Shown here in pieces: positions 9,303-31,280 of a stretch of 32,987 nucleotides of DNA; position 1 is the stretch's first letter; the number at the start of each line of letters is the position of its first letter. The stretch spans positions 1-32,987 of IMG/VR virus record IMGVR_UViG_3300022690_002280, one strand, 5' to 3'. This DNA is from a virus. The position numbers were made by a program, and so were the translations under genes. Under the pieces are notes generated by a model. It did not search any database and had not been told where the DNA came from. It saw only the letters and a list, made by a program, of their open reading frames with translations.

Positions 9303-10652
9303 ATGTCTTCACTTCGAATGTCTTTTGGCGATAAAATTATCCATTCTCCATACACTGGCGGAGTATACCTTACATCAGAGAGTATTGCTGAATCAAACTT
9401 TGCAAATCCTATGGAATTAATCGGAACTAAAAAATTAATGACACTCAAAGAAACAAGTGTATCACCATTTACTGGAACAGTAAAAGAAGGTGCAGAAAAA
9501 TTCTATACACACACTACATTTGATAAAATATTCACTGCTACAACCAAATCTCACTTACAATCAAAACTTGCACAAAAAGAACTCATTGCAACTATCCAAG
9601 AAGAAGGCATGACTCCAAAGGGATACATGGCTGCAATGCAATTAGATGAAATGAAAAAACAGATGAGTGCTGGAAGCAATACACCAGTACCAGGAATAGG
9701 TCAGGATGCAATTGATCCATTAAGAGTTATTGAAATTATCACCAAAATAAGAGGTCTTAGACCAAACATCTTTGTAACAGAACAAGGATTCCAAACAATC
9801 AATGTAAACAAACTAGATGCAAGAACACCTGAGCAAGACACCAGAAACGGTCAAGTTCAGATGAAGCCAATGGAGAAAGTTAACTTTGACAAACTCGAAT
9901 ATGCAGAAGGCAAATTTAACCTAAAGAAAAATACATTCCCAACTTTGATAGCATCAGAAAGTATGATGAGATCAGATTTCTCACTACAGCAACTAAACAT
10001 GACTGATTCAATGATAGGCCACGCAAGAATGAGAAACGGTCAAGCCTTACAAGCACTATCAACACTATCTGGTGCAGTAGGCGGTACTCCAACATTCTCA
10101 ATTAACGATCCAGAGGCAACAGGTGCCAGTGCAATTCCACACGGACAATTCAACGTGAAGAAAGAAGTATTGGCACTTATCCAAAGTCACTTGGAGGCAA
10201 ACGAATCCATCATTGATGAAATTTTCATAAACCCAATTGACTATGCAAGATGGGAATCAAACTATGATGTTGGTGGAACTCTTAATGCTCACGGTGATGT
10301 TTCAGTATCAGGTGTAATCCCAATGAGAGGAATTCCAAGTGTAACTGCATATCTTGATAGGGCAGTACCAAGAGGTCTCATGTACTTTGTAGATTCACAG
10401 TCTGCAATGAAAGGTGTAGGACCATTTGAGACTGAATTCTGGAAAGAATATACCAGAGATGCTCACGCATTCCTCACACGAGACTATGTAGAGTTTATCT
10501 TGCCAAATCCAGGAAGATACGGCATCAAGGTACAGATAGCAGGTACTGGTGCTGATGTGTTTACACCTGGAACAGAAATTGTTACCAGAAAAGACTTGGA
10601 GACATATGTCCAAGGACCACAAAACCTTCTAAATAAAGCAGTAGTCTCTTAG
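9303..10652 (+). CDS. Major capsid protein candidate, HK97-like
   Basis: This 449-residue protein follows scaffold and decoration genes and precedes the connector, where the major capsid gene sits in head-tailed viruses. It has a polar N-terminal region of about 125 residues rich in helix (ELIATIQEEGMTPKGYMAAM) that could act like the HK97 delta domain. Then comes an alpha/beta body with a long helix (VLALIQSHLEANESIIDEIF), a loop and strand region near PMRGIPSVTAYLD, and a terminal strand pair. GGAGG at 9286-9290, 12 nt upstream, is a strong ribosome site, as expected for an abundant product. Cleavage by the upstream protease is likely but the site is unknown. Confidence 0.8.
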   Translation: MSSLRMSFGDKIIHSPYTGGVYLTSESIAESNFANPMELIGTKKLMTLKETSVSPFTGTVKEGAEKFYTHTTFDKIFTATTKSHLQSKLAQKELIATIQEEGMTPKGYMAAMQLDEMKKQMSAGSNTPVPGIGQDAIDPLRVIEIITKIRGLRPNIFVTEQGFQTINVNKLDARTPEQDTRNGQVQMKPMEKVNFDKLEYAEGKFNLKKNTFPTLIASESMMRSDFSLQQLNMTDSMIGHARMRNGQALQALSTLSGAVGGTPTFSINDPEATGASAIPHGQFNVKKEVLALIQSHLEANESIIDEIFINPIDYARWESNYDVGGTLNAHGDVSVSGVIPMRGIPSVTAYLDRAVPRGLMYFVDSQSAMKGVGPFETEFWKEYTRDAHAFLTRDYVEFILPNPGRYGIKVQIAGTGADVFTPGTEIVTRKDLETYVQGPQNLLNKAVVS

Positions 10653-12708: not shown

Positions 12709-14193
12709 ATGGTTAGACAGGAAAAATACAATCATAATAAAATTGTAACATTAGCACAAGACAATACAAAAGCAGTCTCAAAAGATGAATGGAATGACGG
12801 TCACAATGAACTTGGCATGTCAGGGCATGGTACAGTTACAACCCTTACAATATCATCTGGTGCAATAATCCCCATACATGACATGCATATTGTTGCAGGA
12901 GAAGGGGCTGCAAATGATAATTTAGATACTATTACAAATACAGAGTCTGCTGAATTTGATGAAGTTAAATTATTTGCAGGATCTCAAACTATTACTGTAA
13001 GAAATGGTGTTGGAAATATTTTTACATTATCTGGTGATAATGATCAGTTATCCACTACAGTTTCAAGATTATTTGTTAGACGAGGTACTGATTGGTATGA
13101 AACAGGTGGTTCTGGTTCATCTAAATTATTAGGATTCTTTGGTGATGGTTCAGATGGTGATGTTACAATATCATCTAACACTACACTAACTGAAACAAAA
13201 TTTTACAATAATCTAACTATCAACGCAGGAATAACACTTGATGGAACAGCATCTCCTCAAGTAATCTATGTAAAAGATACTTTGACAATTAATGGAACAA
13301 TATCTATGTCAGGTAAAGGTACATCACCAACAGGAGCTGTTGGTGGAGACAGCGGAGATCCTACACCTGATGATGGTTTAGCAGGTAGTGCTGTAGATGC
13401 AATTAATATGAATATTGCTGGTGCAACTGGACCTACTGGTAATGGAGCTGGCGGTGCTGCTGGTGGTGGTGCTGGTGCAGTATTGGGAGGAGGTGGTGGC
13501 GGAAACGTTTCACCATTTGGTAGTACTGCTGGTGGTAGTGGAGTAGCTACCCCATCTCCTGGAGCTGCAACACCTACTCCTTCTACAATTCATTCAGTTA
13601 TAGCATATTTACCAAATGAAAATATTCTTGTAGGAGCAAGTGGTATCTCTGGAAATAGTGGAGGCGCAGGCGGAAACGCTCGTGGAGATGCAACACCAGT
13701 TGCTGATGCTGCTGGTGGTGTAGGCGGTGTAGGTAATGGAGGAGCTGGCGGTACTGGTGGTAATGGTAATTCTGCAGGAACTCAACGTGGCGGAGGCGGT
13801 GGCGGAGGCGGAGGAGCTGGTGGTGGAGGAGGCGATTCATTAATAATTGCAGCTAAAAGAATTAATCTCAATGCTAGTGGAATTATAGAATCTAATGGAG
13901 GTAGTGGAGGAGCTGGCGGTACTGGTGGTAATGGAGCTAGTAGTGGTGCTGGTGGTGGCGGAGGCGGAGGAGCTGGTAATGGAGGTACTGGAGGTAATGG
14001 TGGTTTTATTTTATTATTTTTTTCTTTCTTGCAAAATTCTGGAACAATAACTGTTTCTGGCGGTACTGGTGGTAATAGTGGTACTGGCGGAAGCGGAGGC
14101 ACAGGAGCTAATCCTGGCGGTGCTGGTGGACCTGGAGGTGGAACTGCAGCTAATGGTGTATCTGGAATTATAGTACAATTTCCAACTGCATAG
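12709..14193 (+). CDS. Glycine-rich receptor-binding adhesin, 494 aa
   Basis: Residues 1-140 form a virion-attachment domain of tail-fibre character (KIVTLAQDNTKAVSKDEWNDGHNE..., ending RLFVRRGTDWYETGG). Residues 150-200 are beta-rich. From about 205 the chain becomes runs of GG(A/T/N)GG separated by short hydrophobic strands (IHSVIAYLPNENILV, SLIIAAKRINLNASGII, GFILLFFSFLQNSG). This alternation resembles the polyglycine type II sandwich of T-even gp38-type adhesins. It has a strong ribosome site, GAGGTGA at 12696-12702. It probably contacts the host surface. Low-complexity gene tracts invite repeat-length variation. Confidence 0.7.
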   Translation: MVRQEKYNHNKIVTLAQDNTKAVSKDEWNDGHNELGMSGHGTVTTLTISSGAIIPIHDMHIVAGEGAANDNLDTITNTESAEFDEVKLFAGSQTITVRNGVGNIFTLSGDNDQLSTTVSRLFVRRGTDWYETGGSGSSKLLGFFGDGSDGDVTISSNTTLTETKFYNNLTINAGITLDGTASPQVIYVKDTLTINGTISMSGKGTSPTGAVGGDSGDPTPDDGLAGSAVDAINMNIAGATGPTGNGAGGAAGGGAGAVLGGGGGGNVSPFGSTAGGSGVATPSPGAATPTPSTIHSVIAYLPNENILVGASGISGNSGGAGGNARGDATPVADAAGGVGGVGNGGAGGTGGNGNSAGTQRGGGGGGGGGAGGGGGDSLIIAAKRINLNASGIIESNGGSGGAGGTGGNGASSGAGGGGGGGAGNGGTGGNGGFILLFFSFLQNSGTITVSGGTGGNSGTGGSGGTGANPGGAGGPGGGTAANGVSGIIVQFPTA

Positions 14194-14227: not shown

Positions 14228-14971
14228 ATGGCAATAGAGTCAATCTTTGATGGACCAAGTATGTTTGATCCAAACATATTTGATACAAGACAAAAAAATT
14301 TTCCAGTTAATCTTGTTGAATCAGTTACAGTGTCAGATAGTTTGGTAAGAAAGTTATCAGCTAAACGTGTATTAACTGAAACTGTTTCTATTATTGATGC
14401 AGTTGCAGGGAAACTTGGAGCTAAAAGAGTACTTGTGGAAGCTGCAATTGCAATAGCTGATGCTGTAGCACGAAAGTTAGAAAACAAAAGAGTATTGGTA
14501 GAAACTGTTGTAATTAATGATGTCCTAAACAGAAAACTCTCAGCTAAACGTATTCTTACAGAAGTTACATCAATAGCTGATGCTGTAGCACGAAAACTCG
14601 GAGCTAAAAGGGTACTTGTAGAGACAACTGGAATAGCTGATGCTGTAGCACGAAAGTTAGAACAAAAGAGAACTTTGTTGGAGACTGTATCAATTACTGA
14701 TGTATTAGCAAGAAAAATAGGTCAATTTAGAACTTTACTAGAATCAGTATCAATCACTGATAGTATAACAGCAATCTTAAAGATAATCTCATCAAAGACT
14801 GCAACAGCTACTCTATGTGCAGAAGATACCACACAGTCAAACCTTTGTGCAGAAGATACTACACAATCTAATCTGTGTGCAGAAGATACCACAAAATCTG
14901 ATTTATGCTTAAGTGATTCAACAAAATCTGATTTGTGTGCAGAAGATACCACACAGTCGAGGTTATGTTAG
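14228..14971 (+). CDS. Tandem-repeat protein with C-terminal cysteine ladder, 247 aa
   Basis: Residues 29-183 consist of eight units of 20 residues (one of 21), consensus L(V/T)ETVSIxDAVARKLxAKRV. Residues 196-247 are a second repeat, consensus LCAEDTTQSN, giving cysteines at 197, 207, 217, 227, 237 and 247, exactly every ten residues, with the last as C-terminal residue. Units of the first kind suggest an elongated stalk; the second could be a solenoid or short ladder linked by disulfides or metal. It sits among fibre genes and is probably a fibre or whisker, with no enzymatic motif. It directly abuts the TTG of the next gene. Confidence 0.65.
   Translation: MAIESIFDGPSMFDPNIFDTRQKNFPVNLVESVTVSDSLVRKLSAKRVLTETVSIIDAVAGKLGAKRVLVEAAIAIADAVARKLENKRVLVETVVINDVLNRKLSAKRILTEVTSIADAVARKLGAKRVLVETTGIADAVARKLEQKRTLLETVSITDVLARKIGQFRTLLESVSITDSITAILKIISSKTATATLCAEDTTQSNLCAEDTTQSNLCAEDTTKSDLCLSDSTKSDLCAEDTTQSRLC
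14312..14776 (+). repeat. Eight 60-nt coding repeats
   Basis: The DNA encoding the 20-residue units shows long near-identical segments, such as GCTGATGCTGTAGCACGAAA near 14458, 14578 and 14638. This suggests recent expansion by recombination or slippage. Confidence 0.7.
14813..14968 (+). repeat. 30-nt coding repeats of the cysteine ladder
   Basis: Five units of about 30 nt built on TGTGCAGAAGATACCACA encode LCAEDTT(Q/K)S(N/D). One unit has diverged to LCLSDSTKSD, and the array ends with Leu-Cys-stop. Confidence 0.8.
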
Positions 14972-15301
14972 TTGGCATTAAATTTCACTCTTAATCAGTT
15001 GACAACAACATGGGAAGTTAAATTAACTGACTGTAGTTCAGGTCAGGTGCGTATTACCACTGATATTAGCAGTGTAGGAATAACATTTACAAAAGTAGAT
15101 GGTACAACATTTACAAAAACTGGAACACTAATTGATGATCCACAAGCACCTACAGAGAAACTAATACAGTATAGAAATATTCCACCAGAGGCATCAATAC
15201 TTGACTTGTTAGGTTCATGGACATATGCAGGATTTGTGGTTTTGACTGATACAGGTACATTTAGGACAAGTGAGAAAAAAGTATTCTGGGTTGTGCCTTG
15301 A
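14972..15301 (+). CDS. Beta-sandwich virion protein, 109 aa
   Basis: The protein is almost entirely beta: FTLNQLTTTWEVKLTD, RITTDISSVGITFTKVDGTTF, then SWTYAGFVVLTDTGTFRTSE and KKVFWVV. It resembles the N-terminal domains of phage baseplate/upper-fibre proteins of the BppU type, which share the strand pattern with a VDG turn and a final SEKK-F strand. The TTG start directly follows the TAG of the repeat-protein gene. Its stop TGA lies immediately before the next ATG. A fibre-base or neck role is inferred. Confidence 0.55.
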   Translation: MALNFTLNQLTTTWEVKLTDCSSGQVRITTDISSVGITFTKVDGTTFTKTGTLIDDPQAPTEKLIQYRNIPPEASILDLLGSWTYAGFVVLTDTGTFRTSEKKVFWVVP

Positions 15302-16147
15302 ATGGTTATAACAGATCATAACAAGAATATTCAGAGAATTATTGACAGAATGCTAGCTGATACAAATATTTTTGACAAAGGGGCAACTGTTGGAAAATTA
15401 CGTTCAGTATTTTTTGGAAATCCAAATAACAGAGTCGAAGAATCAATCCCAATGCCATATGCATATGTAACTACAAAAGAATCAATTCAAAGATCATCAT
15501 ATCCATATGGAATTTCATCTGGTAATCAGATTCCACAAGTTACAGTAGAATACAAAATATCAGTCATTGCAAATTCAAAGATAAAAACCCAACAATCTGA
15601 AAAATTACTCTATACTTTATTAAAAAATATCAGAGCAACACTAACTGCAGATCCTGAATTTAAAACACCTGGTGCATCTCCTACTGATCCTATATTTACA
15701 AGATCAGTTCTAAATCAAGTTCCCTGGGAACAGGATACTATCGGACAGCTTGTAACTACTGTTGATTTTATTTTACTTGCTACTATTGGAAGCATAGGAA
15801 CAATTTCAATGCCAACCATTAACGGAGGTGTTGCAATACAAATTATTTCAGAAGCACCAGATGCAGAGATTGAAGTATATTCTCCACAACTAAATGATCA
15901 ATTACTGGTAAAGGGGTATGCACCTACGGGCTCAACACGTTCAAAAAGCATCGAGATAGATCATATACGTACAATAACAGAACAACTAAGAACACTGAAA
16001 AGAACCAGAAAACCGTTTGTTTTAACTACTGTAGATATAGATGGAGTATCTGAAAATCATAATGCAATCATATCACAATTAACATCCAATATTGCAAGAA
16101 TAGATAATATCAAAACAGATTTAATTCAATTTTTAATAGTTAGATAA
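15302..16147 (+). CDS. Tail terminator-like protein, 281 aa
   Basis: Residues 1-165 show an alpha/beta layout like phage tail terminator/completion proteins: an N-terminal helix (NIQRIIDRMLADTNIF), strand-rich PMPYAYVTTKE, VTVEYKISVIANSKI, a helix (QSEKLLYTLLKNIRATL) and a final TTVDFILLATIG strand. These cap the tail tube and join it to the head. Position just upstream of the tail tube gene agrees. Residues 170-281 are an extra alpha/beta domain (IQIISEAPDAEIEVYSPQ..., RTITEQLRTLKRTRKPF) not usual in short terminators. It begins one base after the previous stop. Confidence 0.6.
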   Translation: MVITDHNKNIQRIIDRMLADTNIFDKGATVGKLRSVFFGNPNNRVEESIPMPYAYVTTKESIQRSSYPYGISSGNQIPQVTVEYKISVIANSKIKTQQSEKLLYTLLKNIRATLTADPEFKTPGASPTDPIFTRSVLNQVPWEQDTIGQLVTTVDFILLATIGSIGTISMPTINGGVAIQIISEAPDAEIEVYSPQLNDQLLVKGYAPTGSTRSKSIEIDHIRTITEQLRTLKRTRKPFVLTTVDIDGVSENHNAIISQLTSNIARIDNIKTDLIQFLIVR

Positions 16148-17226: not shown

Positions 17227-17960
17227 TGGTAGTAGTAACTGGAAATCTTGGGATTCTCAGTCAAAGCAGACTTGAAAGAGTAAGCTCAGATGTATCATCT
17301 AACACAGGAGATGCAAATATCAAACTAAACGATGTCCTTGAAAGAGTAAAAAAACTTGAACGTAAAGAAGGTGCATTACCAAGATCAATAACTAGAAAAA
17401 GACAAAGAGAACTTGATCGAGGAATAGCTGGAGGGAGAGGTGAAGAGAGTACACAAAAACTATTCGGTGAAAAATTACCATCAGGATCAATTGGAGCACC
17501 AATAAAGAGAAAACAGGCCTTTAAAGATTTACAAAAAAAAGTAAACAATATAGAAAATACACAAAATGCAATGACTAAGATTTTTGGTCTGATGAGTCCA
17601 TTAGTACGAGGTTCATCAGGATTTCAAAGTATTGGTGGCTTGGGAAATCTTTTACTTACTCAAGCTGCAAGAATTGGATTACCCATATCATTTATAACTT
17701 TGATAGCCACCAAAGTTTGGAAGCAGTATAAAGAGCAATATGGAGACGGAGGAACCCGTGACATTAGAAAACTAATCTTAGATGAGGATGTATCACGAAT
17801 AGGAATTGAAAACGAAAACGAACTGGAATCAGCAGCCAATTTATTTTTATCAAATCCTCAACTGTTAACAGGGTTAGCAAGAGGCCCATCAAACACTGAG
17901 AAACTAAGAGAGGGATTAGCTAGATGGAAACAGCGACATGAAGGAACCTATGGTAGATAA
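17226..17960 (+). CDS. Putative short tape measure protein, 244 aa
   Basis: The tape measure sets tail length and lies between tube and baseplate genes. This is the only gene in that slot with the expected features: N-terminal coiled coil (LNDVLERVKKLERKEG, residues 34-49), a basic disordered stretch, a second coiled coil (KDLQKKVNNIENTQNAMTKI), and a hydrophobic Gly-rich segment (residues 140-163, LGNLLLTQAARIGLPISFI). At 244 residues it would imply a very short tail. It starts at ATG 17226, overlapping the previous stop by one base. Alternatively it is a baseplate accessory protein and the tape measure is unrecognised. Confidence 0.45.
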   Translation: MVVVTGNLGILSQSRLERVSSDVSSNTGDANIKLNDVLERVKKLERKEGALPRSITRKRQRELDRGIAGGRGEESTQKLFGEKLPSGSIGAPIKRKQAFKDLQKKVNNIENTQNAMTKIFGLMSPLVRGSSGFQSIGGLGNLLLTQAARIGLPISFITLIATKVWKQYKEQYGDGGTRDIRKLILDEDVSRIGIENENELESAANLFLSNPQLLTGLARGPSNTEKLREGLARWKQRHEGTYGR

Positions 17961-22109: not shown

Positions 22110-23042
22110 TTGAAGTTTGCTCTAATTCTAATATTATTTACATTTTCAATGATGTTTGTCATACCAGATTCATTTGCTAAACCCCTTGAACCAACACTAA
22201 CATTTGATGATAAAATCTACACCATAAATGATACACTGACATTAACAGGTAATACAGCTATAGCTGGATATGTTGTTAGTGGACATATATCAAATCCTGA
22301 TCAGATAGGAGTTGCGTTTTTGGGTTTCATGTCTGATTCTGATGCTAATTTTTCCCATGAAATTGATCTTTCTACACTTGGGACTTTTTCAACTTATCAA
22401 AAGTATCCCGAGCGTCTAATTAATGGAACATACACAATCAATATAGATAATTTGGGAGAGTTTCCTACCAAAGAGAGAAGTTATTCTTTTGAGTTTTCCC
22501 ATATAGTAAAATCAAATCATGAAAATATTATGCTCTCACTTGACAAAGAAATATACGGTAAAAAAGATCTAATAATATTTACAGGTACAACTCCTAAAGA
22601 ATACTTTTCAAGTGTTTTTATAATGTCAGTTCAAGATCCCTATGGGAAACCAGTAATTAACAGACACAATGATAGCTTCTTAAGTTTTAAGATGATAGTT
22701 GATAAAGATGGTAACTTTGAGGCCAGATTCTTCCCTAAAGATTTTCTAATAAATGGACAATACAAAATAGTAGTTGATGCTCCATTTACAGATAAAATAA
22801 TTGAAAAAACATTCCAATACAAAAATCCTGATCTAGTTGATATTAAAATTTTAGATAGTCAAGTTCAAAAAATAGATGAGGCAGTCATACAGATAGATAC
22901 TAATGTAAATCAAATAGACAAAGATGTTAAAACATTACGCACTGATGTCAACTCATTACAGTTACAACTTGACAATTTCCAAAAATTCGTAAATGAACAA
23001 TTTGCAATAATTTTTGGTTTGTTTAATCAGACTGGAACATAA
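22110..23042 (+). CDS. Secreted Ig-like protein with C-terminal coiled coil, 310 aa
   Basis: A signal peptide is clear: MKFALILILFTFSMMF core and a likely cut after SFA (residue 23). Two Ig-like beta domains follow, each beginning with a characteristic xxDKxIYxxND or LDKEIYGKKD strand (about 30-125 and 138-240), a form common in thaumarchaeal extracellular proteins. Residues 245-300 are a coiled coil with regular heptads (IDEAVIQIDTNVNQIDKDVK, then LRTDVNSLQLQLDN), suggesting a trimer. It has its own promoter (box 33 nt upstream of TTG). A secreted protein among virion genes could coat the cell surface, block superinfection or join the virion after export. It may be host-derived. Confidence 0.7.
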   Translation: MKFALILILFTFSMMFVIPDSFAKPLEPTLTFDDKIYTINDTLTLTGNTAIAGYVVSGHISNPDQIGVAFLGFMSDSDANFSHEIDLSTLGTFSTYQKYPERLINGTYTINIDNLGEFPTKERSYSFEFSHIVKSNHENIMLSLDKEIYGKKDLIIFTGTTPKEYFSSVFIMSVQDPYGKPVINRHNDSFLSFKMIVDKDGNFEARFFPKDFLINGQYKIVVDAPFTDKIIEKTFQYKNPDLVDIKILDSQVQKIDEAVIQIDTNVNQIDKDVKTLRTDVNSLQLQLDNFQKFVNEQFAIIFGLFNQTGT

Positions 23043-23112: not shown

Positions 23113-26100
23113 ATGTCTGATCGTAAATGGAGCGTAGAGCCCCTCAAAGCTACACCAGTAGATGCTGATGAAGCATTAATCATCGATTCAGTTGGTGGCC
23201 TTAACAAGCGAGTTACACTAGGATCACTTGGAGCTGGTATCTGGAAAAGAATAAGTAATGTAATCTCGCCTTCAACTTCAACTGACAAGGTTACAGTATC
23301 AAATACAGTTACGATAGATCCGACAACTCCTCCAGTCCTTGTAGCTACTATCAATGATGCTGTTAATTTTACTAACATCAGCGAGATAGATGTAGTTGAC
23401 AATTTCGCTTATGTGGTAGATGAAACAAAAGACAGGCTGACAATCCTAGATATCACAACTGCCTCAGCACCCCTAATTATTGGCACTACTTCAATAGATG
23501 ATGCTGCTAATCTGAATGGAGCTCGTGATGTTTCAGTGGTTGGCAAATACGCATACATCGCATGTCGTGACGGTAATAATCTAGCAGTAGTTGATATTTC
23601 AGATCATTCTAAGCCTGTTGTTATTGGTACGCTGTTTGATTCACGTCTTAACCAAATGGATAATCTTCATGTTTCAGGAAATTTCCTTCATGCTGTATGT
23701 GGTACTCCTAACAATAGATTTGTAACAATAGACATCTCAAGTCCTACAAATCCAGTCATTGTAGGTGATTTAGTTGATGTAACCAATCTGGTAAATCCTG
23801 CTGACATGTTTGTAGTTGGCAGATTCGCCTATGTTCCTTGTATTGGTAATAACCGATTTTTGGTAATTGACGTATCAAATCCTACAGCACCATTCATTCG
23901 AGGCAACTTACAGGATAACGTAAACTTGGCTGGCATTCTCAATGTTTGGGCTGTTGGCAGATATGTCTACACCCTAAGTCTTAACAATGCCAGTATGGAC
24001 ATAATAGACGTAAAAGATCCTGGTAATCCTGTAAGAGTAGGTGGAATTAAACCCGCAAATTTCGGATCTCCTAAAAAGCTTTTTGTATCAGGCGATCATG
24101 TCTATGCCACATCTTTTAGCGGTAGGAACCTTGTAATATTTGATGTCTCAGATCCTACAACCCCAACCGTAGCTGCATCCCTTCAAGATAATACTAATTT
24201 CACCAATCTCAATGCAGTTTATGTTACAGGCAAGTTTGCATGTCTTTCAACTACTGATACCAGATTCATGGTCGTTTCTCTTGTGGGTTTTGATGCACCA
24301 ACTGGCAATTTTGGAAATATAAAAACAACTTACCTCTCTGTCAATAACAACGTAAGAGTTGCAAATTCTTTGTTTGCTAACACTGTCAATGCCGGAGAGC
24401 ATGGAATAAAAAGCGATGGCGATATAGGAGTATCAGCACAAATAATACAAAAACCAACCAATCCAGTTCTTGCAGGATCAGTAAGTGGAACGAACCTAGA
24501 TGGAATCACTGAGATTCATGTTATTGGTAATTATGCTTACACAGCAAATTTTGATGATGATAGCCTTAGAATTATTGATGTAACTAATCCAAATGCTCCG
24601 TTCATTGTTGGTGGAATAAAGACTACAACCCCTAATTCTCTTAATGGTATAGCAAGTGTCTTTGTAGCTGGAAAGTATGCGTACTGTGCAGCATCACTAA
24701 ATAACTCAATTACAGTAGTTGATATTTCAAGACCTAATGCTCCGACTATAGTTAGCACACTAGTTGATGCCACTCGTTTTACAGGAGTTGACAATATTGC
24801 TGTTGCAGGGAAGTATGCGTATACTGTAGGTTCTGGTTCAAGTAACACCTTTGTAGTAACTGACATTTCAGATCCAAAATTATTAAAAGTTGTTGGAACC
24901 ATAACTAGCGGAGATCTTGCTAGTGCAAATGATATAGTTATACAGGGCAAATATGCATATGTTCCAGTTGTAAGTAGTGACAGATTTCTAGTAATTGATA
25001 TTTCAAATCCAAGAGCACCATTCATTCAAGGCAATATTACCAACACACGATTAGACGGAGCTCTTAACTGTAAGGTTGTAGGAAGATATGCCTACATCAC
25101 ATGTACTAATAACAGCAGCCTTCAAGTTGTCGATGTATCAAATCCTGAAACGCCTACACTTGTTGGCACTACTGGATTAGTAGATACTACTAATCTTTCA
25201 GCCATTGCAGATATTGATGTTGCAGGGAAATTTGCGTATGTCTCAGCAGAAGGAAACAACAGTATCAGAGTTATAGACATTTCAGATCCAGCAAATCTTA
25301 AAATCGTTGCAGGAATCAAAGATGACACCAATCTTCCTTTTGTAGTAGCTCTTGCTGTTTCAGGCAAATTTGCATATACTGGTGATATTAGCATTGACAA
25401 ATTCCAAATTATAGATCTAACAGGAATTTCAGCACCTACTGCTTCCATTGGAAATATCGACACTGATGTTTTGTCTGTCAGGAGTAATGCAAATATTGCA
25501 AACAATCTCATTGCTGGAAGTCTCAACGTTGGACGTAACGGAATAAAAAGTGACGGTGAGGTATCTCTTTCATCATCACTAAAACAAATACCAAAAGATC
25601 CAGTCCTTGCAGGCAGTGTTACTGAGGCAACTAATTTTGATGGAATTAACGCTATTCATGTGGTAGATAATTACGCATATGTTGCAAACACACTTGATGA
25701 CAGTGTTAGAATCATAGATGTAACAGACAAAAATGCACCATTCCTTGTTGGTGGAGTTAAGAATAGTAATCTTGATGGGGTATCAGATGTCTTTGTAGCT
25801 GGAAAATTTGCATATTGTACAGCTCGGGATGTTGATAGGTTTATCGTAATTGATGTATCAAATCCTACTATTCCAATCATTGTTGGCAACTTACTTGATG
25901 GTACATTTCTTGATGGTGTTGAGAGTGTTTATGTAGCAGGCAAATATGCATATGTTGCATGTCGTGACGGTGATAGGCTTACAGTAGTTGACATATCAAA
26001 CCCTACTGCTCCGTTTGTTGCTGGAAGTGTGCAGGATTTCACTAATTTAGTGGGTTTGCGTGGAATTTATGTAGTGGATCACTTTGCATATGTTACATCT

Positions 26101-27006
26101 TTTGCAAATGATAGGTTCACAGTAGTTGATATTTCAGATCCGACAGCACCCTCAGTTCTTACTTCTATTACTAATACTCAATTGGATGGTGCAGATGATG
26201 TGTATATTCAGGGCAGATATGCATACGTTACAGCTTCTAATGATAATAGGCTTGTAGTAATTGATGTAAAAAATCCTAATACTCCTGTAATTGTTGGCAG
26301 TGTTCAAGATGGAACAAACTTGCTTAGACCTGAGAATGTTTTTGTTTCAGGAAATTATGCATATGTTATTGCTGATGGATCTGACGCTCTGCAAGTAATT
26401 GACATTTCAGATCCTACTAATCCTGTAATTGTTGCAGGAATTAAAGACTCTACAAATCTTGATATTCCGACTGCAGTTTTTGTTGTAGGAAAATATGCAT
26501 ATGTTACACTATTTGGTACTAAAAGAGTACAAATTATAGATCTTGGCGGTATTGAAGCACCTACTGCTAGCATTGGAAATATTGAAGCTGGCTATCTATC
26601 TGTAAATACAAATGTAAATGTTGGTCATTCTTTGTATGCTACCAGTCTTAATGCTGGACAGCTTGGAATAAAGAGTGACGGTGATGCGTCAGTTAACAGC
26701 CTAACTATTGGCGGCAATGCTCAATTAAAAAGAACGGCAAGTGCTGTAAATGTCAATAGTGGCAAAGAGATTATCATAGGAATTACTGATACAAGTGTTG
26801 CACGTACTGTAACATTAAGAACTGCTGATACAAAGAATCAAAGAGTTTACATTATAAAAGACGAATCAGGAGCTGCTGGCACTAATCCTATTACCGTAGC
26901 AACAGAAGCAGCACAAACCATAGACGGTGATGCAACTGCCTCAATAAGTGTCAATGACGGAGTTTTACGAGTTTATTGTGACGGGAATAATTGGTTTACG
27001 TGGTAA
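23113..27006 (+). CDS. Tail fibre with three seven-bladed LVIVD beta-propellers, 1297 aa
   Basis: The N-terminal 55 residues (WSVEPLKATPVDADEALIID) look like a fibre attachment domain. Three propeller regions follow at about residues 73-395, 450-773 and 829-1148. Each has seven blades of 45-48 aa, built on the LVIVD pattern: V(Y/F)VxGKYAYV, then LxVIDISDPxxPxIVG. Linkers between propellers share a fibre-like motif (LSVNxNVxVxxSLxAxxxNAGxxGIKSDGD). The C-terminus (VTLRTADTKNQRVYIIKDES, ending DGNNWFTW) is a common phage tail-tip domain. I infer a receptor-binding fibre. The N-terminus reads MSDRKWSVEP, with no signal peptide. Confidence 0.8.
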   Translation: MSDRKWSVEPLKATPVDADEALIIDSVGGLNKRVTLGSLGAGIWKRISNVISPSTSTDKVTVSNTVTIDPTTPPVLVATINDAVNFTNISEIDVVDNFAYVVDETKDRLTILDITTASAPLIIGTTSIDDAANLNGARDVSVVGKYAYIACRDGNNLAVVDISDHSKPVVIGTLFDSRLNQMDNLHVSGNFLHAVCGTPNNRFVTIDISSPTNPVIVGDLVDVTNLVNPADMFVVGRFAYVPCIGNNRFLVIDVSNPTAPFIRGNLQDNVNLAGILNVWAVGRYVYTLSLNNASMDIIDVKDPGNPVRVGGIKPANFGSPKKLFVSGDHVYATSFSGRNLVIFDVSDPTTPTVAASLQDNTNFTNLNAVYVTGKFACLSTTDTRFMVVSLVGFDAPTGNFGNIKTTYLSVNNNVRVANSLFANTVNAGEHGIKSDGDIGVSAQIIQKPTNPVLAGSVSGTNLDGITEIHVIGNYAYTANFDDDSLRIIDVTNPNAPFIVGGIKTTTPNSLNGIASVFVAGKYAYCAASLNNSITVVDISRPNAPTIVSTLVDATRFTGVDNIAVAGKYAYTVGSGSSNTFVVTDISDPKLLKVVGTITSGDLASANDIVIQGKYAYVPVVSSDRFLVIDISNPRAPFIQGNITNTRLDGALNCKVVGRYAYITCTNNSSLQVVDVSNPETPTLVGTTGLVDTTNLSAIADIDVAGKFAYVSAEGNNSIRVIDISDPANLKIVAGIKDDTNLPFVVALAVSGKFAYTGDISIDKFQIIDLTGISAPTASIGNIDTDVLSVRSNANIANNLIAGSLNVGRNGIKSDGEVSLSSSLKQIPKDPVLAGSVTEATNFDGINAIHVVDNYAYVANTLDDSVRIIDVTDKNAPFLVGGVKNSNLDGVSDVFVAGKFAYCTARDVDRFIVIDVSNPTIPIIVGNLLDGTFLDGVESVYVAGKYAYVACRDGDRLTVVDISNPTAPFVAGSVQDFTNLVGLRGIYVVDHFAYVTSFANDRFTVVDISDPTAPSVLTSITNTQLDGADDVYIQGRYAYVTASNDNRLVVIDVKNPNTPVIVGSVQDGTNLLRPENVFVSGNYAYVIADGSDALQVIDISDPTNPVIVAGIKDSTNLDIPTAVFVVGKYAYVTLFGTKRVQIIDLGGIEAPTASIGNIEAGYLSVNTNVNVGHSLYATSLNAGQLGIKSDGDASVNSLTIGGNAQLKRTASAVNVNSGKEIIIGITDTSVARTVTLRTADTKNQRVYIIKDESGAAGTNPITVATEAAQTIDGDATASISVNDGVLRVYCDGNNWFTW
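23329..26580 (+). repeat. Three ~1.14-kb coding repeats (propeller plus linker)
   Basis: Propeller starts near 23329, 24460 and 25600 give a period of about 1.13-1.14 kb. Each period holds seven blades of about 140 nt and a linker. Blade-level repetition also yields many short DNA repeats such as GATATTTCAGATCC. Confidence 0.7.
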
Positions 27007-28703: not shown

Positions 28704-29585
28704 ATGAGTGTTCCAAGCAAACCAAAAAAACTGACTACAAGTGTAGGAGACAAACAAATTACTTTACATTGGGAAGCACCAACTAGCAATGGCGGATTTC
28801 CCATCCTTGACTATCTGATACAATTTAGAAATCCCAATGATCCTTGGAGTACATTTAATGATGGCACATACACCAGACTCACATCCACTGTAACTGGATT
28901 AACTAACAAACAATATTACGAGTTCAGAGTTTCTGCAATTAATAGGTCTGGTACTAGTCCATCATCAAATATTGCAACCAGTTCGCCACAACCACATGAA
29001 ATATCACCACCAGCCAGACTATCATCACTAATTACGATTCCAGGAAGTACAAGAATTTATGCACAGTGGAGAGACGGTGATAATCATGAAGATCCAATAG
29101 ATAGTTACAGAGTAACAAAGAAACAAGGAAGTGGATCTGAATCAACAGTGAATGCAACAATCCCAAATTATGAGGACAGGTGCATTATTGATGATTTATC
29201 AACTTCAACGTCCCATACCATATCTGTCTATCCAAAAAATATTGAAGGTGAGGCACTTACAACATCATCAACTGTAACTACAACTGCCAAGTCATTAGTA
29301 CCACTTGCATCAACTAACCTGAATCTTGTAATACATAGAAATTCATTCAAGTTGACATGGACTGCACCAACAAACACTAGAGGAAAGCCAATTACGGACT
29401 ATATGTTAGAATTTAGAATCAATGATGGTCAATGGCTAATATTGGGGAGAAATCCAAATATACATCCTCAAGTTCAGGTGAGTAATTTGGCAAGAAAGAG
29501 AAAAACTGACCTGAGAGTCTATGCAGTTACAGATAATGGAGTTGGTGAACCATCAAGTATAGTTACCATACCTGCTGTTTCATAG
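28704..29585 (+). CDS. Triple fibronectin type III protein, 293 aa
   Basis: Three FN3 domains in tandem: residues 4-97 (PSKPKKLTTSVGDKQITLHW, ending YYEFRVSAINRSGTSPSS), 103-197 (PPARLSSLITIPGSTRIYAQW, ending TSHTISVYPKNIEGE), and 199-292 (LNLVIHRNSFKLTWTAPTNT, ending DLRVYAVTDNGVGEPS). The Trp and Tyr of each core and the N-x-x-G-x-S loop are present. FN3 domains in phage tails mediate weak surface binding. With no signal peptide and its start 3 nt after the preceding gene, this is probably a virion-attached protein. It ends the fibre cluster. Confidence 0.85.
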   Translation: MSVPSKPKKLTTSVGDKQITLHWEAPTSNGGFPILDYLIQFRNPNDPWSTFNDGTYTRLTSTVTGLTNKQYYEFRVSAINRSGTSPSSNIATSSPQPHEISPPARLSSLITIPGSTRIYAQWRDGDNHEDPIDSYRVTKKQGSGSESTVNATIPNYEDRCIIDDLSTSTSHTISVYPKNIEGEALTTSSTVTTTAKSLVPLASTNLNLVIHRNSFKLTWTAPTNTRGKPITDYMLEFRINDGQWLILGRNPNIHPQVQVSNLARKRKTDLRVYAVTDNGVGEPSSIVTIPAVS

Positions 29586-30426: not shown

Positions 30427-30558
30427 ATGGCAAAAGATTTAGCAAATATAGAAAAAACAGCCAGAGCCTTAGATGATGCTAATTGGGAAATAGAAAAATG
30501 GACAAGAATAAAAGAACAACTTGAACTACATCGTGAACATCTGGAGAAAACAAAATGA
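30427..30558 (+). CDS. Helical microprotein, 43 aa
   Basis: A 43-residue amphipathic peptide (MAKDLANIEKTARALDDANW..., then KEQLELHREHLEKTK) looks like one continuous helix or coiled coil. Its stop overlaps the protease start as ATGA at 30555-30558, and its promoter box AATACATTTA begins 34 nt upstream. It could be an inhibitor, chaperone or partner of the protease with which it is co-translated; this is inference from coupling. Confidence 0.55.
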   Translation: MAKDLANIEKTARALDDANWEIEKWTRIKEQLELHREHLEKTK

Positions 30559-31280
30559 CTGAAAAATACTGTGAATTAGTTTTGTTAGATAATGGAAAAA
30601 TGCAATCAACGGATGCAGCAGAAACTACAACAAAATCAATAGAAGAGAAAATTCAAGATGATAAAAGGTATGGTAATTTTGTTCCAAGAAATGGAAAATA
30701 TTTTACATTCAGAGTCTATGGTGAAGATGAGGAAATCAAACACAAGACAGTAATCAAAGCAGTCCACTATGCATTTAGAGGTTGGACTATACGCACCAAG
30801 GCCAAAGTAAGACGGGCAAGAAAAAATGAAGAGCCTGACTTTAAGATTCATTTCAAAAATCCAAGAACTGATTCATTACTGAAAAAAAATACAATCATGT
30901 ATCACTATTATCCAATTAATGATGTCAATAATCCAAAAAGAGGAATGTGTGTTATCAATTCAGACTTTTACTATACAGTACATGGCAATCCAATCTCAAT
31001 GCACATGATTGATCCAAAAAATTATCCAAAAGATACCAAAAGGACAGGAAAGACAATGGACATTGATGCAATCATTCGTCATGAGTTTGGACATGGATTT
31101 GGTTTATCACATGATAATCAAACACATACTGTAATGTACTACTCACAAGGTGGTATGGCAGAGTTTCCACAAAAAAGAGACATTGCAAGAATTCAGGGAA
31201 AATTGGGAGTCAGTTTGTTATCAAAACATATTGTGTTTAGATGGATGTTGTGGCTACGGTATAGAAGTGATAACTATTGA
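30555..31280 (+). CDS. Metzincin-type zinc metalloprotease (matrixin-like), candidate lysin
   Basis: The catalytic zinc site is complete: HExxHxxGxxH with H176, E177, H180, G183 and H186 (RHEFGHGFGLSHD), and a Met-turn M194 (TVMYYS), as in matrixin-like metzincins. Residues 60-150 form the alpha/beta upper domain (TFRVYGEDEE..., DFKIHFKNPR...). There is no signal peptide or propeptide cysteine switch, so release would need a holin. The C-terminal WMLWLRYRSDNY is amphipathic. It lies after a holin-like gene and starts by ATGA overlap, with GGAG 8 nt upstream. Since the presumed host wall is a protein S-layer, a protease is a sensible lysin. Confidence 0.8.
   Translation: MTEKYCELVLLDNGKMQSTDAAETTTKSIEEKIQDDKRYGNFVPRNGKYFTFRVYGEDEEIKHKTVIKAVHYAFRGWTIRTKAKVRRARKNEEPDFKIHFKNPRTDSLLKKNTIMYHYYPINDVNNPKRGMCVINSDFYYTVHGNPISMHMIDPKNYPKDTKRTGKTMDIDAIIRHEFGHGFGLSHDNQTHTVMYYSQGGMAEFPQKRDIARIQGKLGVSLLSKHIVFRWMLWLRYRSDNY

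Follow-up and report, generated by a model that had tools for sequence, protein, structure and literature searches.

A virus protein of 247 residues ends in a strictly periodic ladder of cysteines, one every ten residues, which follows a body of 20-residue tandem repeats and is retained in register in a divergent relative. Our preferred reading, to which we assign a probability of about 0.4, is that this ladder forms the end of a virion stalk in the surface module of a tailed virus, where it would display the thiols of the protein, probably as an oligomeric β-type ladder. The gene occupies positions 14228–14971 of the window, that is, of the entire 32,987-base virus record that was analysed (35% G+C), which encodes a terminase (PHROG, E = 1e-34) and in which a series of structural genes lies on the plus strand. 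A sequence-only reading had already remarked on the cysteine ladder that closes this tandem-repeat protein and knew of no described function for it; we find in addition that the ladder is maintained by selection and lies within a virion gene cluster, and our searches, too, returned no described counterpart.

In the translation, cysteines are found exactly at the residues claimed at the outset (197, 207, 217, 227, 237 and 247) and nowhere else, and the last of them is the final residue before a TAG stop codon. The N-terminal segment (Table 1) is identical to its counterpart in the ortholog described below at 21 of 26 positions, compared with 41% identity within the repeats. The eight 20-residue units said to precede the ladder are likewise present, each of about that length, as judged by the autocorrelation of the sequence at lag 20 (0.44 in the window, 0.32 in the ortholog), the other tested lags of the window protein, except lag 40, giving 0.13 or less. 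Their consensus is L-h-E-[STN]-V-x-[IV]-[ST]-D-x-[LVI]-x-R-K-L-x-x-[KF]-R-x, with E3, D9 and R19 invariant across 11 aligned units. From residue 196 onward the array consists of LCAEDTTQSN, LCAEDTTQSN, LCAEDTTKSD, LCLSDSTKSD, LCAEDTTQSR and a terminal LC. The decapeptide period proposed in the sequence-only reading thus holds, although the unit is not an invariant LCAEDTTQSN (the fourth departs from it and the fifth ends in SR), and all six cysteines exist, although the sixth unit is a bare LC whose cysteine is not conserved in the ortholog. Cysteine accounts for 11.8% of the final 51 residues but for 0.43% of those encoded by the other open reading frames starting between 8794 and 18532; its rarity in the window's other virion-cluster proteins makes a conserved array of evenly spaced thiols conspicuous. 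If six cysteines were scattered at random over a protein of 247 residues, the chance of a ladder of this kind would be about 7e-10; the proper null, however, is tandem duplication.

Table 1. Features of the stalk gene and its surroundings in the window
Feature	Positions	Strand	Remarks
Capsid-type gene	9303–10652		identified from its location and length; matches no family
Glycine-rich fibre-like protein, upstream	12709–14193	+	same surface module; matches phrog_13336 (function unknown) at E = 4e-13
N-terminal signature of the stalk protein	14228–14305	+	residues 1–26, MAIESIFDGPSMFDPNIFDTRQKNFP
Repeat body	14306–14797	+	residues 27–190; about eight 20-residue units
Decapeptide cysteine ladder	14813–14968	+	residues 196–247; five L-C-x-x-D-x-x-x-[SA]-x units and terminal L-C
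GAGGT, Shine-Dalgarno-like site	14959–14963	+	within the final codons of the ladder gene; -13 from the TTG at 14972
Next gene	14972–15301	+	109 residues; small β-rich protein

Relatives were sought in IMG/VR with the capsid-type protein (9303–10649), which is 71–74% identical in three contigs and 57% identical in a fourth; two of these four contigs span the position of the stalk gene. The sole stalk ortholog found, 46% identical over its full length, is encoded at 14995–15744 of the most distant one, 3300022670_000913 (hereafter L125). Its tail consists of LCFIDDVQSD, LCINDSTESK, LCTNDTSEAK, LCKIDETKSD and LCINDSSEAE, followed by LKI: five cysteines ten residues apart, aligned in register and without gaps to the five units of the window protein. 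The window's terminal cysteine is replaced in this tail (ELKI), which leaves five conserved cysteines. The leucine, cysteine and aspartate of L-C-x-x-D are the only invariant positions over the ten units of the two orthologs; between orthologous units they are identical in 15 of 15 cases, compared with 9 of 35 for the remaining positions, a difference for which p = 6e-7 is indicative only, since these columns were picked after viewing the alignment. The retention of an identical ten-residue spacing in so divergent a relative argues that the ladder is real and maintained.

The gene neighbourhood is shared as well. In both viruses the stalk gene lies in the structural cluster, downstream of the major capsid gene and flanked by a fibre-like, glycine-rich gene on one side and the pre-tail genes on the other, within a common series that encodes a Cys/His-rich 84-residue protein, a 186-residue protein, the glycine-rich protein, the stalk, and proteins of 109 and 279 residues; this location suggests that the product is part of the virion. 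The C-terminal part of the glycine-rich protein, a homolog of which adjoins the stalk ortholog in L125, contains GGxGG runs and is similar in composition to glycine-rich adhesins known from certain phage tail fibres. Elsewhere in the window are a 1,297-residue protein with 17 matches to the β-propeller-type LVIVD repeat (23113–27006; Pfam E = 5e-112), a protein with three fibronectin type III domain matches (28704–29585; Pfam E = 2e-28) and, near the end of the record, a Matrixin-type metallopeptidase with the motif HEFGHGFGLSH (30555–31280; Pfam E = 7e-13). The signal peptide of the open reading frame at 22110 looks to us like those of Nitrososphaerota (thaumarchaea) and may hint at such a host.

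In the second contig that spans the position, L003, whose capsid protein is closer to that of the window (73–74% identity) than is that of L125, another tandem-repeat protein occupies the slot (17285–17911), with repeats of about 17 residues (SKTTIFKHDI...) and no cysteine, ahead of homologs of the window genes that start at 14972 and 15302. Since this relative has a cysteine-free repeat protein at the same place, the stalk position is best regarded as a tandem-repeat slot that can be filled in at least two ways, the cysteine ladder being one, and the types of repeat in it appear, from these sequences, to be exchangeable.

The gene that follows the stalk starts with TTG immediately past the TAG of the ladder and, in the window, in the same frame. 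A fusion of the two by read-through was considered and rejected, because the next gene of L125 starts with ATG in another frame; it is also countered by the Shine-Dalgarno-like site ahead of the TTG of the window, of a kind found at -10 to -17 before several other window genes. As the deviating TCG AGG (Ser-Arg) of the last full ladder unit coincides with this GAGGT, the deviation may serve the translation of the next gene. The 109-residue product is 60% identical to that of L125 (15749–16075) and 24% identical to that of L003 (17908–18267), and is encoded by a separate gene in the relatives. Its structure model (pLDDT 53) has a baseplate component as best Foldseek match, at a non-significant E of 0.016; the predicted fold shows a weak, non-significant resemblance to phage baseplate or BppU-type domains, and Pfam BppU_N did not match the protein. 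The single cysteine of this product is shared with L125 but not with L003, just like the ladder; with three sequences this amounts to a lead only.

The AlphaFold2 model of the stalk monomer, built from two sequences, has a pLDDT of 36 with every residue below 50, and is uninformative on order or on the face occupied by the cysteines. A charge–hydropathy plot classes the body of both orthologs as folded and their tail, which has few hydrophobic residues per ladder unit, as marginally disordered. The strongest hydropathy period of the tail is 2.0 residues in both orthologs, as in β structure, and a ten-residue spacing places the cysteines on one face of a strand or a regular β-solenoid, while in an α-helix they would turn by about 80 degrees per unit. 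The 20-residue body repeat can be read as 7+7+6, but its hydropathy power at 108 degrees, reached by 8–16% of column shuffles, is not significant and is exceeded by a 5-residue signal. As an argument from pattern only, this body might be an α/β coiled coil, in which the strand-like VSI[ST]D would interrupt the helices as an insertion of the kind that makes β-layers; such coiled coils form trimeric stalks, one of them in the tail fibre of a prophage (Hartmann et al. 2016, PMC4786415).

We propose that the protein is a stalk of the surface (tail or neck) module: its conserved N-terminal segment is followed by eight 20-residue repeats that would make up the rod, and then by the C-terminal decapeptides, whose five L-C-x-x-D units selection has preserved as a true structural repeat. 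These would most likely form a β-type ladder in an oligomer, with leucine rungs on one side and stacked cysteine rungs on the other. The cysteines would stay reduced while the stalk assembles in the cytoplasm; once outside the cell, they would be free to stack, to crosslink between chains or to bind metal. A more specific version, in which the folding or locking of a stacked thiol–carboxylate ladder, with one cysteine and one aspartate in each ten-residue rung, awaits exit from the cell and is brought about by interchain disulfides or a column of metal sites, seems to us unlikely.

Among known systems, InlJ of Listeria is a leucine-rich repeat protein with repeats of about 21 residues. In this protein, as in the stalk, cysteines are laddered along the repeats (Bublitz et al. 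2008, as cited in PMC7291126); the stalk differs in its ten-residue, acidic unit of the form L-C-x-x-D, and Pfam and NCBIfam scans detected no leucine-rich repeat family in it. The segment [SA]-[DN]-L-C-x of the ladder resembles one pentapeptide in two of a pentapeptide repeat protein (A[D/N]LXX), but the intervening five residues, x-D-T-T-x, do not follow the pattern, Pfam gives no match, and the autocorrelation is 0.12 at lag 5 versus 0.74 at lag 10.

If the cysteine rungs, reduced in the cytoplasm, were oxidised after lysis, interchain disulfides could covalently lock the end of the stalk, much as the sequence-only reading proposed. This is doubtful as the principal role, even though the conserved cysteines are evenly spaced among neighbour proteins nearly devoid of this residue and, being five per chain, an odd number, are unlikely to pair fully within a chain, which favours interchain bonds. 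In an in-register trimer, three thiols per rung could not be paired. The oxidase search covered thioredoxin (PF00085) and VKOR (PF07884), neither of which was matched in three virus records, those of the window and of the two relatives that span the slot, with positive controls; this result, provisional in view of possibly fragmentary records, lends no positive support to disulfides driven by the virus. Moreover, the close relative L003 manages without a ladder, which together with the missing thioredoxin and VKOR matches argues against an essential, universal crosslinking role.

No better placed is a disordered adhesive or docking tail, in which each decapeptide would be a short linear motif that includes the cysteine and repetition would provide avidity. 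The composition of the tail lies on the disordered side in both orthologs, and leucine, cysteine and aspartate alone are fixed as the rest of the unit drifts; however, the strict spacing, without a single indel in five units at 46% identity, exceeds the needs of a flexible array.

Somewhat less probable still is a metal ladder. In it, the cysteine thiolate of each unit and the aspartate carboxylate three residues further on would form stacked sites for a soft metal, whose binding would make the tail fold once outside the cell. Cysteine and aspartate are invariant in all ten units and the tail seems incapable of folding unaided, but each unit provides a single thiol, and Pfam yields no metal-site or RTX family match to the stalk protein. 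Calcium folds RTX repeats outside the cell. The ladder resembles these nonapeptides in being made of short acidic repeats with one leucine and a fixed aspartate that are unlikely to fold on their own, and differs in having cysteine, a ten-residue unit and no GGxGxDxLx motif.

At the DNA level the ladder is a tandem repeat with a period of 30 bases (TRF), as would be expected of a functionless minisatellite expansion, an origin that we regard as very improbable. The leucine codons of units 1–5 are all different (CTA, CTT, CTG, TTA and TTG), and among the units synonymous differences (pS = 0.60) exceed nonsynonymous ones (pN = 0.19; pN/pS = 0.32), so that the ladder is not a fresh minisatellite; the other five reading frames contain stops or no comparable array, and the distant ortholog has the same number of units with the fixed L-C-x-x-D.

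Enzyme-installed Cys-to-Asp thioethers of the ranthipeptide type can be practically dismissed: the PapA precursor also has six Cys-Xn-Asp motifs, its enzyme PapB accepts n = 0–6 in vitro (PMC9413430), and NCBIfam NF038108 ('Cys-every-fifth RiPP') hits both orthologs (E = 0.03 and 0.07, about 14 and 13 bits), but these hits are far under the cut-off of 30, the ladder has X2 rather than X3 spacing in a 247-residue stalk-like protein of a virion cluster, and radical SAM (PF04055), whose absence removes most of the support, is found in 14 of 14 control genomes and, provisionally, in none of the three possibly fragmentary virus records.

Across the whole of IMG/VR, a search for three L-C-x-x-D units recovered no family member beyond the L125 contig, the other matches being pentapeptide-type and unrelated repeats; in GTDB genomes only repeats of these kinds were present among the matches listed. 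The L125 contig was also the sole return with the two-sequence stalk alignment as query, and the LCxxDTT array search suggested in the sequence-only reading, run as a strict pattern of paired LC..D[TS]T, matched nothing. A loose DNA pattern of five L/F-C at ten-residue spacing gave, among the matches listed for IMG/VR, other simple or short-period repeats, mostly in seemingly non-coding frames. Single-sequence homolog searches with the stalk and with the neighbouring protein (15302–16147) returned nothing, tblastn against phage records gave no significant match, and the stalk protein has no Pfam family above cut-off and no explanatory PDB sequence. PHROG 12240, of unknown function, weakly matches the 20-residue repeats of both orthologs (E = 8e-6 and 3e-4); matches to the histone H1-like HC2 family were below cut-off and were rejected. 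Arrays of 30 bases that read SLCYKDAQTG in one frame, with identical L-C-x-x-D spacing, occur in a Poribacteria genome (L182:3869–4213 and L225:5320–5574) and are seemingly unrelated and perhaps non-coding.

The motif L-C-x-x-D every ten residues offers a handle with which more members of the family can be sought. If a thiol–carboxylate ladder of the proposed form indeed exists, it would add a previously undescribed kind of fibre element, triggered by redox state or by metal. Should it fold or lock after release, it would represent a compact new repeat that gives the virus a simple route to assemble one of its parts in the reducing cytoplasm and to harden it outside.
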